The notes beneath the pieces were generated by a model. The model saw only the letters and a list, made by a program, of their open reading frames with translations, had not been told where the DNA came from and made no database searches. Shown one piece after another: positions 28,832 through 49,968 of a DNA stretch of 64,000 bases (positions within the stretch are counted from its first letter, which is position 1; each line of letters starts with the position of its first letter). Origin of the DNA: Sulfitobacter sp. HGT1 (GTDB lineage Bacteria; Pseudomonadota; Alphaproteobacteria; Rhodobacterales; Rhodobacteraceae); NCBI RefSeq assembly GCF_013282155.1, contig NZ_BLWI01000003.1, positions 1 to 64,000 on the forward strand, given 5' to 3'. The position numbers were made by a program, and so were the translations under genes.

Positions 28832-30148
28832 CTAAGCTAGCAATTGCCCTCGCGACCCTTCAAATTGATCAGTCAGAGTATCATGATCCGAACTCAAGCC
28901 TTCGATACAGTACGGATTCAGGAATTGTCGCCCGCCAAACAGGGCTTTGTCTGTTGCGCTGAGGTCTGCGAGCTCACAGACCGCGTCCCATTTACGGGCA
29001 ATCGTGATAATCTGTTGCGTGATGACCTCGATTGCGTCGTCGTCGGTGAGTAGGAAATCTGGTGCGGCGGTTAGACAACTGGCCAAAGTGCTCATCCGAT
29101 TGTCGCCCTTGATTAGCATCGCCTGCGTCGCTTCATTCCCGGTGCGGCCTTGAGGGCAGATGTCATAAGCGGGGGAGAGCGTAAGCATTTCGCCGTCCCA
29201 AAAGGCTGCATGATTGCGGGCGTGATCGTCCGTATTGCCACACAGCACGTTAAAGCAGATTCGGCCAAACAGCTCTCGCAGCGTCTCCTTGGGCTTGGCG
29301 AAGCGGTGACGAATGATCTCGGCCAGATCCTCGTAGGAGGCATAGCGCGCCATCATCTCATCCAGCCCAAGGATTGTAAGTGCAGACACCATCGCTTTGC
29401 GATGCCAGTCCTCACCTGCGCGGGTCCGGTCAAAGCGCTCGATCAAGAGCACGTCTTTGCCGCCAGCTTCAATCATCGAGACGGGCGCGACGTCTAGGCC
29501 GCAGGCAGCCGCGAGCTTCATCGCGATGAATTCCGCTTTGACGACGCTATAGAGGTCGCCGCTTGCCGAGAATTTGGCGATCAACTTGCGATCTCCGCGA
29601 TCGATCAGCGCCTTGGGCCGCGCGCCACCGATTGATGTACCGTGATTGAGCGCCTGATCTAGGCCAAGCGTCAGGGGCGCGCCTTTTTCAATGAGACTGG
29701 CTGCCTCGATGAGTTCCTCATATGTGGCTTCGGATTTCCGGCGCGGCACATACTGCGTCGCCGACGCTTGGAAATCGAGGGCACCGATGCGGTCAGAACC
29801 GGATGCAAGCAGGTAGGATATTTCTGTGATGTTGCCGACTTCGGCTGTACTCGCCTTTGCGCCCACCAAACGATTGATGATGACACGCCGCCCCCATGCA
29901 TCCGGAGAGCCGTCGCGAATGCAGCTGGCCATCGAAAGACCGGCCTGAGGTTCGATGATGCCTCGACGCAGCGGGAGTTCGGGTGCGTATATCGGTATTG
30001 CATCGGTGCGCTCGAGGTAGCTTGCACCGTAATTGAATACGAACCGGTCCGCATCTTGCGTGATGCGCCCTGCAACGACAGGGGCGGTGCTTTCGGGCAG
30101 CCATATCCAGACAAAGGCCTCCGAGGCTTGGGCAAAATTAGAAGTCAT
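28832..30148 (-). CDS. hipA: HipA-family toxin kinase
   Basis: A 438-residue HipA. The N-terminal domain (ESTAPVVAGRI, FNYGASYLERTDAIPI) is followed by the serine/threonine-kinase-like core: SIGGARPKALI (P-loop type, about 170-180), LIERFDRT, then the catalytic GNTDDHARN (about 303-311) and the metal-binding SPAYDICP (about 325-332). All key residues look intact. HipA kinases phosphorylate aminoacyl-tRNA synthetases such as GltX and stall growth; HipB blocks them. It overlaps hipB by 11 bases and is read after it. On a plasmid the pair is expected to act as an addiction module (inference). Confidence 0.93.
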   Translation of the reverse strand: MTSNFAQASEAFVWIWLPESTAPVVAGRITQDADRFVFNYGASYLERTDAIPIYAPELPLRRGIIEPQAGLSMASCIRDGSPDAWGRRVIINRLVGAKASTAEVGNITEISYLLASGSDRIGALDFQASATQYVPRRKSEATYEELIEAASLIEKGAPLTLGLDQALNHGTSIGGARPKALIDRGDRKLIAKFSASGDLYSVVKAEFIAMKLAAACGLDVAPVSMIEAGGKDVLLIERFDRTRAGEDWHRKAMVSALTILGLDEMMARYASYEDLAEIIRHRFAKPKETLRELFGRICFNVLCGNTDDHARNHAAFWDGEMLTLSPAYDICPQGRTGNEATQAMLIKGDNRMSTLASCLTAAPDFLLTDDDAIEVITQQIITIARKWDAVCELADLSATDKALFGGRQFLNPYCIEGLSSDHDTLTDQFEGSRGQLLA

Positions 30149-45267: not shown

Positions 45268-45651
45268 GATTTCCTCCCTTTGCCCAGTTGGGCGTCGGAG
45301 GAATTGATAGCAGAGCACACTTCACCGGTCTTTTATCTAAATTTACAGACTTTGTTAGCTCAGCTTAAATGATTTTCATAATCTACGGAACGACTACAGC
45401 CAGACCGGCCGCTCTCAAATCAGGTCGTTGGCATCGGCCAAGTTTGGCCGCTGCAATGTCTGTCTGACACGGATTGTACCAGTTCGCGCCCGACGCAGCA
45501 TTGGTCAAAATGCGCTCTTTGCTGCCGAATGCGTCTGCGGCGTGTCCCAAAAAACAGGCGACCTGACAACGGCCATTCAAACTGCCTGTAAAATTTAGGT
45601 GTCAGCGCGGTGCTGATGTCTGGGTTTGGCGGGAGGATTGGAGGGCGTAAT
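45268..45651. other. Gap between the transketolase operon and the integrase
   Basis: No gene. It must hold the promoter of the minus-strand transketolase/TRAP operon. Around 45490 it contains a GCAGCATTGGTC word that also occurs at 14401. From about 45600 on the sequence is shared with the upstream part of the dead integrase copy. Confidence 0.4.
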
Positions 45652-46284
45652 ATGCCAAGAGTCCAACTTCCCGCTGTCACCCCGAAACGAAGACCCTGGA
45701 ACAAGGGCCGGATCATCGGCCAGAAACGACCACTGTTGCCGAAACAGGTCTGGGCGATCCGCGCGCGGCTCGAACTGTCGGGCAACCTGCGCGATCTTGC
45801 GCTTTTCAACGTGGCCATCGACAGCAAACTGCGAGGATGCGATCTGGTGAAACTGGCGGTTGCTGATCTGGTCAAAGATGACCGCGTGCGGGAGCGAGTC
45901 TCTGTGATCCAGAGCAAAACCAAGCGGCCCGTTCAATTCGAACTGACGGAAAACACGCGCCAAACTGTCCTGGCTTGGGTCAAGTCGCCCGAGATGTTTG
46001 CGTGCCGGTACATGTTCCCGAGTCGGTTCCATGACCGCCCACACATCTCGACGCGCCAGTACGGTCGGCTCGTCCGCGACTGGGTGACCGCGATTGGTTT
46101 AGAACCGAGCGGGTATGGCACCCATTCGCTTCGTCGGACGAAAGCGGCCGAAATTTACCGAAAGACTGGCAATCTTCGCGCAGTTCAGCTGCTCCTTGGT
46201 CACACCAAAGTGGACAGCACTGTGCGCTACCTTGGCGTTGAGCTGGAAGACGCTCTGAGCATCGCCGAGCAGATCGACATTTGA
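45652..46284 (+). CDS. Intact tyrosine recombinase (small integrase)
   Basis: A 210-residue tyrosine recombinase with ATG 45652 behind GGAGGG. It has the full catalytic set: Arg61 in SKLRGCDL, a beta-hairpin Lys about 89-91, H158 and R161 in GTHSLRRTKA, H184 in LLGHTKVDST and the nucleophile Y193 in TVRYLGVE. It lacks most of the usual N-terminal core-binding domain, as is normal for this short roseobacter family. A broken inverted homolog lies at 27936-28568. Whether it moves an element, resolves plasmid dimers or has another job is not clear; I found no attachment site. Confidence 0.9.
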   Translation: MPRVQLPAVTPKRRPWNKGRIIGQKRPLLPKQVWAIRARLELSGNLRDLALFNVAIDSKLRGCDLVKLAVADLVKDDRVRERVSVIQSKTKRPVQFELTENTRQTVLAWVKSPEMFACRYMFPSRFHDRPHISTRQYGRLVRDWVTAIGLEPSGYGTHSLRRTKAAEIYRKTGNLRAVQLLLGHTKVDSTVRYLGVELEDALSIAEQIDI

Positions 46285-46602
46285 GCCACGTTGGCGGACG
46301 GCATGTGCCGTTCGCCAATCCAGACCGGACTTGCGTACGCGGCGCAGCGGTGGTTCTGATTGAGCCCTCTTTGCCGAATTTCTGCGATGCAGCTAAAGTC
46401 TGCTATCCCGGTGGAGGCAAAAACGTTCAACAACCACTTGGGTTTTGAACGGGGTTTAAGGCAGCATCGAACGAGGAGTTTCGTGGTTGTGCCAAAAAGG
46501 AGGGTTTTTGGAACAAGGCAGAATTTAAATCTACTTGAAGAGAAACAGTGCATCGACCATCAGTGATCAGAGCACGTCAACGACATGGAAGTTTAAGGAA
46601 TG
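46285..46602. other. Gap before the oxidase-like gene
   Basis: No gene. A short AGCTAAAGTCTGC word at about 46391 recurs near 62857. Confidence 0.4.
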
Positions 46603-47418
46603 ATGAGCGCCGATGTCCGCAGGAATGCGAAGATCCCTGCAGCAATATTTACGGTAGTTGCCCTTTTTGTCGGGCTTGCACTTTTAGCGTTGCAGATGAT
46701 CCTACGGATGGAGTTGATGGCCCCTGGGCTTCAGTATATTTGCGCTGAGGGCCAGTTAACATTTTGCTTTGCAAATGTTGATCAAGCCAGCGCGATTTCG
46801 CGCGCCCCTTTGGCATTCCTAGTTTACTTGGCTCTGATTCCCGCATTCCTCGCAGTGCTTGTGATGCGCCTACAAAAAACCATGCCACTTCATTTCAAGG
46901 CATGGGTCGTTGCGGCGATGTGGCTAGCTCTTGCATGTTACCTCGCCGTTCCAATCACCAGTATAAATTTCCCCTCATCGTTATCGGGTCCTGTCGCGCC
47001 AGATGGCTGGACGCTTTATCCACCTTTGTCGTCATCCTCCTCGTCTTATCAAATTGATGCGATCCTTAATTCGCTACAAATGAACAAGGTGGTAGTTGCG
47101 ATACTCTTAGCCCTAAGCCTGTTCGGTTTTACAATTGCCGGATTTAATCGACTGCGCTCCACCTTTTCAAAGGTCGTGCGAATAGGTTTCGCCACTTTGA
47201 TGATCTGGATGACCTGGATGCTCATCTCACGGCTAAGCTATTTTCTGGGATTCATAAGTATGGATCGGAATTTTGGGACCGTATTTTTTGACCCCGCCTT
47301 GCAGCCGGACAAAGACTTTCCGACACGTTTTTTAGAACTTTTGGACGGCCCAGAAATATGGTACATAGCGCCGGCACTCTGTTGTTTGGTTCTTTGGTTT
47401 TTAGCTAGACGAACATAG
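46603..47418 (+). CDS. Cytochrome c oxidase subunit I-like membrane protein lacking the metal ligands
   Basis: A 271-residue membrane protein; AAGGA lies just upstream of two adjacent ATGs (46600, 46603). About six hydrophobic helices. Segments match heme-copper oxidase subunit I in the right order: RMELMAPGLQYICAEG (35-50; oxidase RMEL..PG.QY.C.EG), MPLH (94-97), GWTLYPPLSS (135-144) and MDRNFGTVFFDPA (220-232) followed by LDGPEIWY (248-254; oxidase FGHPEVY). It ends where oxidase helix VI would be. The heme-ligand YHG after helix I is replaced by SRA, the CuB-ligand His of HPEV is Gly, and the regions with the other ligands are absent. It cannot be an oxidase. Reading frame and start are intact, so it is not obviously a pseudogene. 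Function unknown. Confidence 0.75.
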   Translation: MSADVRRNAKIPAAIFTVVALFVGLALLALQMILRMELMAPGLQYICAEGQLTFCFANVDQASAISRAPLAFLVYLALIPAFLAVLVMRLQKTMPLHFKAWVVAAMWLALACYLAVPITSINFPSSLSGPVAPDGWTLYPPLSSSSSSYQIDAILNSLQMNKVVVAILLALSLFGFTIAGFNRLRSTFSKVVRIGFATLMIWMTWMLISRLSYFLGFISMDRNFGTVFFDPALQPDKDFPTRFLELLDGPEIWYIAPALCCLVLWFLARRT

Positions 47419-47557
47419 CCTTCCAAAAAGGACCGTTTGTTGAACGGTTCGCTGGACAGGACATTCGCGCACGTGCAGCGAAGGTCTGAAATGTCCCGCG
47501 TAGTGTAAGTTGATACGGTGCGCAGCGAATGGCCGCAATCGTCGCGCTTTATTGAGC

Positions 47558-48538
47558 CTAGTTGGGCAAATAGAACTCAGCGATTCCACGTTTCCCGTCC
47601 ATTCGACCCAATTGGACGATAACATCGATCGACTTCTGAATGTACTTCCGCACCTCAGCGAAGGTGAGCGGCGTGCCCGCTTGTAAGACCATTATGGCTA
47701 ACCGATCGATTGCCAGCTCAGCTGTTTCCGCATGGATGGTTGAGACTGACCCACCATGTCCGGTGTTGATCGCTTCGAGGTAAGTTAAGGCTTCGTCCCC
47801 GCGCAGTTCCCCAACGATGATACGGTCCGGGCGCATCCGCAAAGACGCCTGCAGAAGCGCGTGAGCGCTTCTCTGTGATCCAGTGCTGCGACTTGCCAGC
47901 AGGGCTACGGTGTTGGGTTGGCTAGGGAACAGTTCAAACGCATCTTCAATCGTGATCAGCCGTTCGCCATCATCGACATGAGTAAGAAGATGTCGGGCAA
48001 AGGTGGTCTTGCCAGTCGATGTGCCACCACTGATCAATATATTGAGCCTTTGATGTACCAAGGCCTCTAACGCGGCTTCGAGGTTTTCTTCAGCTTGGCT
48101 GGCAATGTCTTTCATCTTTTCAGCTCTCAGTTGGTCGAGCGAGACAGCTTTGCCAAAAAGATAGGATGGTTTGTACCCCTGCACGCCCGCTGTAGCGAAC
48201 AGACGGATAGTGATCGAGGCACCCTGTTCAATGGCAGGTGGAACCGCGACCTGAACTCTCAGAGGTCGGCCTGCATATTCAACTTTGCCAGACACCAGCG
48301 GGTTTTTCTCTGATACGCGGGCATTGGCATCACCGACGATTGTCTGCGCCATATTGAATGCCGTGCTACGGTCAACTGTCTGACCTTCATGACGCATTGC
48401 CGCGTCACCTGCGGCTTCGACCCAGACTTTTCCATCAGGGTTGATTGCGATTTCGACGACATCGTCGCGCAGCAGCAAATCGCGAAACGGCTCAAGATAT
48501 CGCTCTAAGTAGGACGCAGGCAGCGGGGGTTGGCTCAA
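47558..48538 (-). CDS. virB11: VirB11-family secretion ATPase
   Basis: A 326-residue hexameric ATPase with TTG start 48538 overlapping the virB10 stop (TTGA). Walker A is SGGTSTGKTTFARHL (about 153-167), followed by the Asp box (LITIEDAFELF), the His box and Walker B region LRMRPDRIIVGELRGDEAL (about 210-230). The N-terminal domain carries VVEIAINPDGKVWVE. It powers pilus building and substrate transfer at the inner face of the membrane. Last gene of the virB operon. Confidence 0.94.
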   Translation of the reverse strand: MSQPPLPASYLERYLEPFRDLLLRDDVVEIAINPDGKVWVEAAGDAAMRHEGQTVDRSTAFNMAQTIVGDANARVSEKNPLVSGKVEYAGRPLRVQVAVPPAIEQGASITIRLFATAGVQGYKPSYLFGKAVSLDQLRAEKMKDIASQAEENLEAALEALVHQRLNILISGGTSTGKTTFARHLLTHVDDGERLITIEDAFELFPSQPNTVALLASRSTGSQRSAHALLQASLRMRPDRIIVGELRGDEALTYLEAINTGHGGSVSTIHAETAELAIDRLAIMVLQAGTPLTFAEVRKYIQKSIDVIVQLGRMDGKRGIAEFYLPN

Positions 48539-49968
48539 TAGATCACCACATCGCGGTCGACGAGAACTGTCACGGATGCACCTTGATCAATATAAATAGT
48601 GGGTGAGATCGAAACCTGCTCGGCGATCACAGACCCCACAGCGTCTTCCAGATCTCCGGAAACCCCCTCAAGCACTTCGCTGGCTGTTTCATTGTCAGTA
48701 CTGTTTGCGGCAACTGCTGGTGCTGCGCCAATGAGGGAGATCAGCGCGGCCCCACCAAAACGTTCAGCAAACTTTGTGTCGACGATCCCAGTTAACCCAG
48801 AGCGCCCAAGCTGGTCGCCGCCAACAGAGGCAATTTCAATCGACGTCCCATCTGGGGTTAGAACGCGGGTCCATAGGATCAGGATACGTTTCTGGTTCAA
48901 CTCAATTCCAGACCGATATTGGCCAAAAAGACGCGAGCCGCGCGGGATTAGGATTTGATCGCCAGAAAAGGCAGGCACCGGTTCAGACACAACCGCCACA
49001 ACAGAGCCCGGCAAGTCGCTGTTGATAGCTGTTTGCAAGGCAGCTTGAATGACAGAGCCTTGGGAGAGCGTTCTCTCTGGAAAGGCCATCTGGGACGCTT
49101 CTTGAATTTCCAGTGGCCTTGCGCCTTGCCGGAGATACTGTTCGTTTTCGGTCAGGGTGGGTCCATCTGTTCCTGCCACAGCAGCATTTGGACTTGTTCC
49201 GTCAGCGGATGCGGTCCGTGGGCCATCTGCATAAACGACCGAAGGAGAAACGATCTGGGCGGTCAGCAATTCTTGCGCAACACGTTCGGCTTCACGCTGA
49301 CGCTGCTCTTCCTCCTGCCGCTGGCGTTCTTCAAGCAACCGTTGATCTGCAATCAGACCATCGCGCGCCATTTCTGCCTCAAGACCTTCGCGCTGCGCAC
49401 GTTCAGCGTCCAGCATGGCCTGCAGGCCGGCCAAACGTGCTTCGTTCTGCCGCTGCGCGTTTTCTATTTCGGTGTCTTTGGCGGCAATGGAGGCTTCAAG
49501 CGCATCGGTTTGGACTTGGAACGCCTCTCGCAGATCAGAGACGGCTTCCTGAATTTCGGCGTTGCGGGCAGATTGGCTCGCAGCAAGCGCTTCCCTCAGT
49601 TTCGCGATTTCCTCCAGCACCGCTGCACTGGGTTCTGCGGGTGCCGGCGCAGGGGCCGGCACATCGAGCGCCTCTTCAACTGCTATAAGTGCATCGTTGA
49701 CCCGTTGTTCCGCTTCATCCGGCGGAAATTCCAACCGCCCACCATTTCCGGTGCGTTGATCCTGAAAGGTCTCAACGTCAGACGTTTCTAAGCCTTTGGC
49801 TCTTTCTTGCAGATTTGTTGCCAGAAAGTAGGCAGCACCACCGCCGCCAAGCGCAAGCGCGATCGCCAATGCCCCGACACCTATATTACCGCCACGGCGT
49901 TTGGTCTTGTTCTTCTGGCTGAACGTGCTCAGGCGGTCCTGAAGGTCGGGTGTGTTCTCATCAGCCAT
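48535..49968 (-). CDS. virB10: VirB10 core-complex protein (TrbI family)
   Basis: A 477-residue protein spanning the envelope. A cytoplasmic N-terminus, one membrane helix (about 28-50, GVGALAIALALGGGGAAYFLA), a long coiled-coil-like region rich in Glu, Gln and Arg (about 110-230) instead of the usual proline-rich linker, then the TrbI domain (about 285-470; SVIQAALQTAINSDLPGSVVA, in two parts, PRGSRLFGQY, IQIASVGGDQ-like). It links inner and outer membrane parts of the T4SS. It follows virB9 by 2 bases. Confidence 0.93.
   Translation of the reverse strand: MADENTPDLQDRLSTFSQKNKTKRRGGNIGVGALAIALALGGGGAAYFLATNLQERAKGLETSDVETFQDQRTGNGGRLEFPPDEAEQRVNDALIAVEEALDVPAPAPAPAEPSAAVLEEIAKLREALAASQSARNAEIQEAVSDLREAFQVQTDALEASIAAKDTEIENAQRQNEARLAGLQAMLDAERAQREGLEAEMARDGLIADQRLLEERQRQEEEQRQREAERVAQELLTAQIVSPSVVYADGPRTASADGTSPNAAVAGTDGPTLTENEQYLRQGARPLEIQEASQMAFPERTLSQGSVIQAALQTAINSDLPGSVVAVVSEPVPAFSGDQILIPRGSRLFGQYRSGIELNQKRILILWTRVLTPDGTSIEIASVGGDQLGRSGLTGIVDTKFAERFGGAALISLIGAAPAVAANSTDNETASEVLEGVSGDLEDAVGSVIAEQVSISPTIYIDQGASVTVLVDRDVVIY

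Follow-up and report, generated by a model that had tools for sequence, protein, structure and literature searches.

What does half of a respiratory enzyme subunit do on a plasmid? The question is raised by a gene at 46600..47418 on the forward strand of the window (the whole stretch of 64,000 nucleotides analysed here, which is part of contig 3 in a 34-contig genome). Its reading frame, a phmmer search of the PDB and a CtaD profile identify it as a half-length CtaD-like gene. The product, a protein of 272 aa referred to here as P0001, has the RefSeq accession WP_007121049.1 and carries no annotation beyond 'hypothetical protein' on the plasmid pDSM14862_e.

Homology to subunit I of the aa3 oxidase

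In the phmmer search of the PDB, P0001 matches subunit I of the aa3 oxidase from Paracoccus denitrificans (1qle_A) with an E-value of 3e-16. Residues 14-256 of P0001 align with residues 16-266 of the chain, a region that spans helices I-VI, and all 17 distinct PDB sequences obtained with this query at E<=10 are COX1. A profile made from 34 rhodobacterial CtaD rows gives P0001 67.2 bits, against 9.4 bits for the best of 2,000 shuffled sequences. The phmmer E-value and this difference in bits rule out a chance resemblance to COX1. None of the other window frames (stop-to-stop, at least 100 aa) is found among the best 8 rows of the CtaD-profile scan.

The preliminary description of this locus had proposed a COX1 profile search as a check, and the result depends on the profile used. 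The NCBIfam CtaD model TIGR02891 recognizes P0001 with an E-value of 1.3e-8, although its 33.9 bits are far from the curated cut-off of 670.75, which applies to full-length proteins, and the CtaD profile described above agrees with it. Pfam COX1, on the other hand, does not report P0001 at E-values up to 10, nor at E<=0.01 in a scan of its own genome. The AlphaFold models of P0001 are of low confidence (mean pLDDT of 52.3 for the protein alone and 57.5 with the 34 CtaD rows), and Foldseek searches with these low-confidence models returned no significant match and no COX1 structure.

The identity of P0001 to the CtaD rows is 26-30% in the two alignments used (A1 and A2). Among the matches listed, the best one reaches 70.4 bits in other genera of the family and 52.8 bits outside the family. 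Two cysteines in the loop between helices I and II are common to P0001 and the 34 rhodobacterial CtaD rows, and are absent from three CtaD of other alphaproteobacteria (L149-L151). The scores inside and outside the family, together with the shared cysteines, suggest that a rhodobacterial CtaD is probably the source of P0001. The branch of P0001 in the tree has a length of about 10 changes per column, and the tree gives it no finer placement. By these comparisons, P0001 is a true but distant homologue of rhodobacterial aa3 subunit I over helices I-VI, and it is almost certainly a non-catalytic descendant of CtaD.

Reading frame and layout of the protein

The frame of P0001 is open from the ATG at 46600 to the stop codon ending at 47418, and an AAGGA sequence directly abuts this first ATG. 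The intact frame with a start codon and a ribosome site that had been described earlier is therefore confirmed, except for the position of the start: the ATG at 46603 is the second one, and the protein has 272 residues when counted from the first. The five COX1 motifs reported for this gene (RMELxxPGxQYxC, MPLH, GWTLYPPLS, MDRNFGTxFFDP, and GPEIWY) are all found, in that order, and the protein terminates after helix VI, as had been noted.

The individual segments all lie on the forward strand. The periplasmic loop I-II, with limits set by hand (residues 36-67, 46705..46800), reads RMELMAPGLQYICAEG...C and keeps R36 together with the loop cysteines C48 and C56. It is followed by helix II (residues 68-90, 46801..46869), where P70 stands at the column of the conserved helix II histidine of CtaD. 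The periplasmic loop III-IV (residues 123-160, 46966..47079) holds GWTLYPPLS, and the periplasmic loop V-VI (residues 219-250, 47254..47349), with the sequence MDRNFGTVFFDP, ends in G250, which occupies the position of the histidine of the CtaD motif GHPEVY. Helix VI (residues 251-272, 47350..47415) keeps the PE of this motif and finishes with ARRT before the stop codon. With RR following helix VI, this end resembles a natural terminus.

Loss of ligands and conservation of the periplasmic face

The conserved histidine of CtaD helix II, a heme a ligand, is replaced by P70 in the alignments, and the histidine of GHPEVY in helix VI, a CuB ligand, is replaced by G250 in the P0001 sequence DGPEIWY. 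The replacement of the heme and CuB histidines claimed previously thus holds at both columns. P0001 has a single histidine, H98, which falls in a loop predicted to be cytoplasmic, and this shortage of histidines is independent of the alignment. A role as a heme-related sensor, one of those suggested earlier, is unsupported, since P0001 retains neither ligand histidine of this half and H98 is predicted to lie on the cytoplasmic side. P0001 has no counterpart of CtaD helices VII-XII and of the heme and CuB histidines in them. The possibility that the oxidase is split and its other half encoded elsewhere in the genome was rejected: the C-terminal half of the CtaD from the same genome matches nothing in the window at E<=1, and no partial COX1 was found in that genome, where PF00115 (E<=0.01) gives three matches, each covering almost the full length, with frames of 565, 551, and 457 aa. 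Of the proton-channel residues of helices II-III and VI, P0001 has lost both Asn of NNLS and the Asp of GAPDM, and it has kept the Glu of PE.

The distribution of what remains is uneven. Columns at least 97% fixed in the 34 rhodobacterial CtaD rows were regarded as invariant, and they were divided by hand into periplasmic loops, helices, and cytoplasmic loops on the basis of the known COX1 topology, the alignment, and hydrophobicity. P0001 keeps 33 of 71 invariant columns in the periplasmic loops, 19 of 84 in the helices, and 4 of 19 in the cytoplasmic loops, which corresponds to a periplasmic bias with an odds ratio of 3.0 (p 0.001). This bias is possibly inflated, because conserved loops anchor the alignment and helix columns may be misaligned. 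CyoB from E. coli, used as a control, leans in the opposite direction (26/71, 44/84, and 15/19; odds ratio 0.43, p 0.009), and the four remaining controls, CtaD of other alphaproteobacteria, have odds ratios of 0.73-0.81, none of them significant. At the 74 columns that are fixed also in all five controls, P0001 keeps 15 of 22 periplasmic, 7 of 38 helix, and 2 of 14 cytoplasmic positions. The conservation of P0001, as read from the alignment, is inverted relative to the controls and favours the periplasmic face. Outside the helices, 12 Lys and Arg residues fall on the cytoplasmic side and 4 on the periplasmic side, a distribution that fits a CtaD-like orientation.

Codon-position evidence of selection

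The identity between P0001 and the 34 CtaD rows is 0.415, 0.535, and 0.276 at codon positions 1, 2, and 3, compared with 0.251, 0.293, and 0.253 in a shuffled-codon control and with 0.864, 0.931, and 0.583 for the CtaD rows among themselves. The third positions of P0001 are thus nearly saturated and the first and second far less so, with the caveat that the second-position signal arises partly from the hydrophobic pattern of the helices. When a neutral simulation was halted at a third-position identity of 0.45, a generous setting, it had accumulated a mean of 9.8 stop codons, and about 1 of 5,000 runs remained stop-free; at that shallow depth, its second-position identity reached a maximum of 0.58. 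Second-position identity alone therefore leaves drift possible, and it is the open frame and the contrast between codon positions that carry the case. These features suggest that P0001 evolved for a long time as a protein and was probably under protein-level selection in the past, and they disfavour a recent pseudogene. The earlier view of an intact, non-catalytic homologue of subunit I is borne out by the homology, the lost ligands, the open frame, and the codon-position pattern.

Plasmid context and distribution

The window contains RepA/ParA- and RepC-type replication genes and a virB operon. A stretch of 30,816 bases (31600-62415) matches pDSM14862_e, a plasmid of the marine bacterium Sulfitobacter indolifex, with 100% identity; this plasmid is typed as RepABC-4 with a T4SS in a paper whose main text lacks the word 'cytochrome' (PMC9025767). 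The P0001 gene is known from five identical records, namely four PLSDB plasmids found by tblastn and the window, with no substitutions between them from which a dN/dS ratio could be calculated. Judged from these identities, the plasmid bearing P0001 is one that has recently spread. Its description as a conjugative plasmid agrees with the presence of the virB operon and with one of the four PLSDB carriers, but MOB-suite classifies the other three only as mobilizable.

The P0001 gene is adjoined by a gene for a tyrosine recombinase (Pfam Phage_integrase; 45610..46284, forward strand), so the integrase noted next to it is indeed there; close relatives of this recombinase occur elsewhere with other neighbours. 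On the other side, virB11 (47558..48538, reverse strand) is convergent with the P0001 gene, and its 3' flank forms a cargo slot; virB10 (48535..49968, reverse strand) lies next to virB11. A break point can be placed at 46297..46301, as the sequences to either side of it border on the same TniB/TniQ transposon genes on two plasmids (L034, L152) of strain THAF37. The island containing the integrase and a transketolase is located there on another plasmid, and the P0001 gene remains with the T4SS. Three of the plasmids with P0001 have the integrase and the transketolase/TRAP island in their slot as well. No oxidase or assembly gene is listed for 9.9-123 kb of pDSM14862_e in the PLSDB gene table, which is incomplete. 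A full-length aa3 CtaD is encoded in the genome studied here and in both other genomes of the genus with the P0001 gene.

Several further features of these replicons were observed. The contig of the window also carries a gene for a HipA-like kinase (Pfam HipA_C; 28835-30148), and long stretches of the window recur at 99.9-100% identity in isolates obtained from the plume of an Atlantic vent, from an aquarium, and from kelp in California. The plasmid pDSM14862_e has two virB operons (NZ_CP084956.1, 25857-37112 and 61634-72627; L032, L160), the second of which has HamA/HamB (Hachiman) beside its virB11, and a block of ABC-transporter and hydantoinase genes is present twice with the same protein accessions (L160:2614-10102 and L161:3079-10567). 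This plasmid may be a fusion of two plasmids.

Searches for diverged relatives of P0001 in overlapping draws of genomes from the family, genus, order, relatives, and class found none, at thresholds below which weaker short relatives would escape. In the family (394 genomes, E<=1e-15), 147 genomes had a match, with the short frame only in the window and frames of at least 399 aa in the other 146. The gene was present in 3 of 62 genomes of the genus (E<=1e-10), two of them probably the already known carriers of pDSM14862_e and pTHAF37_a; in the same 3 among 387 relatives (E<=1e-22); and in 1 of 292 genomes of the order (E<=1e-21). The matches listed for the class (385 genomes, E<=1e-6) include at least three other frames shorter than 400 aa (G811, G842, and G945), which proved to be ordinary CtaD genes cut by contig ends. 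First scans of genome contigs and of viral contigs revealed no relative of P0001, and in a second scan of genome contigs all 79 frames read from the best 80 of 414 candidates had at least 399 aa. A phage origin of the gene was also discarded, as P0001 has no match in 50,697 phage records and the two matches in IMG/VR contigs (L147 and L148, of 134 kb and 38 kb) are one and the same ordinary full-length CtaD. Those contigs may be host DNA or an oxidase-carrying virus.

The virB11 flank as a cargo slot

A search with VirB10 yielded 42 plasmids at 60% identity or more, including the 4 carriers of P0001. The 3' flank of virB11 was inspected in 18 of the 38 others, eight chosen for diversity and ten added after a pattern had emerged, with their cargo unseen at the time of choice. 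The second virB operon of pDSM14862_e brings the number of slots to 19. PADLOC models were applied at E<=1e-3 or 1e-5 to 27 proteins from 17 of these slots, a subset of the slot genes; the scan left out one slot without an insert (L062) and one with an integrase and an IS91 transposase (L060).

Matches of at least 100 bits were obtained in 11 of the 19 slots and for 16 of the 27 proteins, and they belong to six kinds by PADLOC name. These are RTasSbcB with capP (L056), ThsB (L061, L163, and L164), LmuA or LmuA/LmuB (L162 and L169), Hachiman in the form of HamA/HamB (L165 and L160) or HamA (L170), a CBASS cyclase with a SAVED effector (L166), and Aga_Nuclease (L168). Weaker matches were found for PD-T4-5 (58-60 bits; L058 and L059), an ankyrin protein (67 bits; L055), and QueC (55 bits; L171), and the slots L057 and L167 have no defence match in PADLOC. 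As related plasmids share systems, the 11 positive slots are not independent. In comparison, none of 20 genes away from virB11 reaches 100 bits and two have matches below 30 bits, these being soft controls from one plasmid type and mostly with housekeeping or metabolic functions. Two slots (L171:5233-8275 and L057:7491-8552) hold genes for a VUT (queuosine) protein, a 7-cyano-7-deazaguanine synthase (the QueC match of 55 bits), and PfkB kinases, a cargo that is perhaps of a DNA-modification type.

In this Rhodobacterales T4SS family, the region flanking virB11 resembles a hot spot for defence genes. A literature search for such a hot spot gave a single paper, PMC13386836, which treats anti-phage defence generally and does not mention virB. 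P0001 itself matches no known defence family, its only PADLOC match being a homing-endonuclease model at 16.7 bits, and the integrase and the LysR gene of its own slot have no PADLOC match. None of the 19 other slots beside a related virB11 has a gene annotated as COX1-like. Whatever the role of P0001, this flank is a place to seek unknown defence genes.

Proposed role and alternative explanations

The reading preferred here is that a plasmid captured a rhodobacterial ctaD, giving rise to a half-length product with six helices that would share the fold and orientation of CtaD. After its capture by a conjugative plasmid, P0001 would have been freed from redox and proton chemistry, and its periplasmic face, as the pattern of conservation suggests, would have stayed under selection. 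This face may dock on the partners of subunit I, such as CtaC (subunit II), CtaG/Cox11, or Surf1, in which case P0001 would be a non-productive stand-in for subunit I, by which the assembly of the host aa3 oxidase is restrained or adjusted. For an assembly factor or a decoy subunit, two of the roles suggested earlier, the conserved periplasmic face is the one relevant observation, and both roles are tentative. The position in the slot points, less strongly, to a benefit for the plasmid against phages or rival elements. That subunit I has partners of this kind is indicated by Paracoccus, where an association of CtaG is described with each of the subunits I and II, and one of Surf1c with the oxidase (PMC5249081); partners of this type would presumably use the kept periplasmic face.

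The individual parts of this proposal differ in strength. On the preferred reading, P0001 would probably be cargo directed against rival elements or used to adjust host respiration. Docking on oxidase partners is a tentative suggestion drawn from the conserved loops, and the stand-in explanation as a whole is likewise offered as a possibility held with low confidence. A use in defence or exclusion is doubtful: it is suggested by guilt by association with the slot, which in the case of P0001 contains an integrase and a metabolic island as well. In the most complete version, half of subunit I, devoid of cofactors and carried in a defence slot linked to the T4SS, would seize oxidase partners with its kept periplasmic face, tamper with host respiration, and thereby block phages or rival plasmids; this version is unlikely. 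No relevant literature was found on truncated or ligand-less subunit I, or on ctaD carried by conjugative plasmids.

Another explanation, which we regard as unlikely, is that P0001 has taken on a new function in the membrane that has nothing to do with the oxidase, such as entry or surface exclusion or an accessory function in the T4SS, and that the subunit I scaffold reflects its origin only. The strong divergence of the helices and cytoplasmic loops would agree with this, as would the failure of Pfam COX1 to recognize the protein and the case of THAF37, where the gene stays with the T4SS operon and the other flank is lost. However, the residues kept in the YPPLS, DRNFGT, and RMEL loops fit the surface of subunit I better than a free scaffold, and the lack of COX1-like annotations in the other slots indicates that P0001 is not a fixed part of the T4SS.

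It is rather unlikely that P0001 acts as a stand-alone anti-phage membrane protein, by abortive infection and with no oxidase partner. Such a function would leave the conservation of the loops unexplained, and the homing-endonuclease match is the only one P0001 has to a defence model. Its appeal comes from the frequency of defence genes in the related slots compared with the non-slot genes, tempered by the two slots with no defence match, and from the existence of abortive-infection membrane proteins encoded by single genes, with PdpSau as an example in the available text of PMC10127798.

The gene could finally be a relic: a 5' fragment of a divergent ctaD, once captured and now drifting, which hitch-hikes on a recently spread plasmid. 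Its GC content of 0.484 is below that of four neighbouring genes (0.540-0.592), a scan of 46200-47650 found no sigma-70-like promoter around it, and the only copies are the five identical records, with no diverged relative found. These properties would be expected of a relic, and yet the open frame of 272 codons despite nearly saturated third positions, the codon-position pattern, the inverted and face-specific conservation, and the apparently natural RR end after helix VI make it improbable.

If P0001 does keep the outer face of CtaD without its chemistry, as the stand-in explanation holds, it would separate the docking surface of subunit I from catalysis and could serve as a natural tool for finding what binds nascent subunit I. 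If its position in the slot reflects its function, it would be an example of mobile elements drawing a protein of respiration into their conflicts.

Comparison with known systems

The closest known system is aa3 subunit I itself (CtaD/COX1, TIGR02891; Paracoccus 1qle/1ar1). P0001 resembles it in the homology over helices I-VI, the order of the loops, and the predicted orientation, and keeps the equivalent of R54, the YPPLS and DRNFGT sequences, and the PE of helix VI. Unlike subunit I, it has half the length, replaced ligand histidines, and no helices VII-XII, and is encoded by an orphan plasmid gene. P0001 falls outside subunit I in the ligand and length features tested, with one channel residue kept.

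The defence systems of the related slots (Hachiman HamA/HamB, CBASS, LmuA/LmuB, ThsB, RTasSbcB, and Aga_Nuclease) share with P0001 their location beside virB11. This likeness is only positional, as P0001 matches none of their models. Abortive-infection proteins of the PdpSau type are similar in that one accessory gene of a mobile element suffices to encode the membrane protein, but PdpSau has a single membrane-binding helix, and the two are likened with no claim of homology (PMC10127798, available text).

A last parallel comes from plants. Some open reading frames responsible for CMS contain pieces of cox1. The mitochondrial CMS proteins WA352c and ORF312 have regions of interaction with COX11, and ORF312 is toxic to E. 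coli, as stated in the available part of PMC8073397. Like P0001, these are products of non-enzymatic ORFs on a non-nuclear replicon, and they are tied to an oxidase assembly factor (PMC8073397); they differ in belonging to plant mitochondria, and they are likened to P0001 with no claim of a sequence relation. They show that an unrelated organellar ORF can act via an oxidase assembly factor (PMC8073397), which for P0001 is no more than an analogy.
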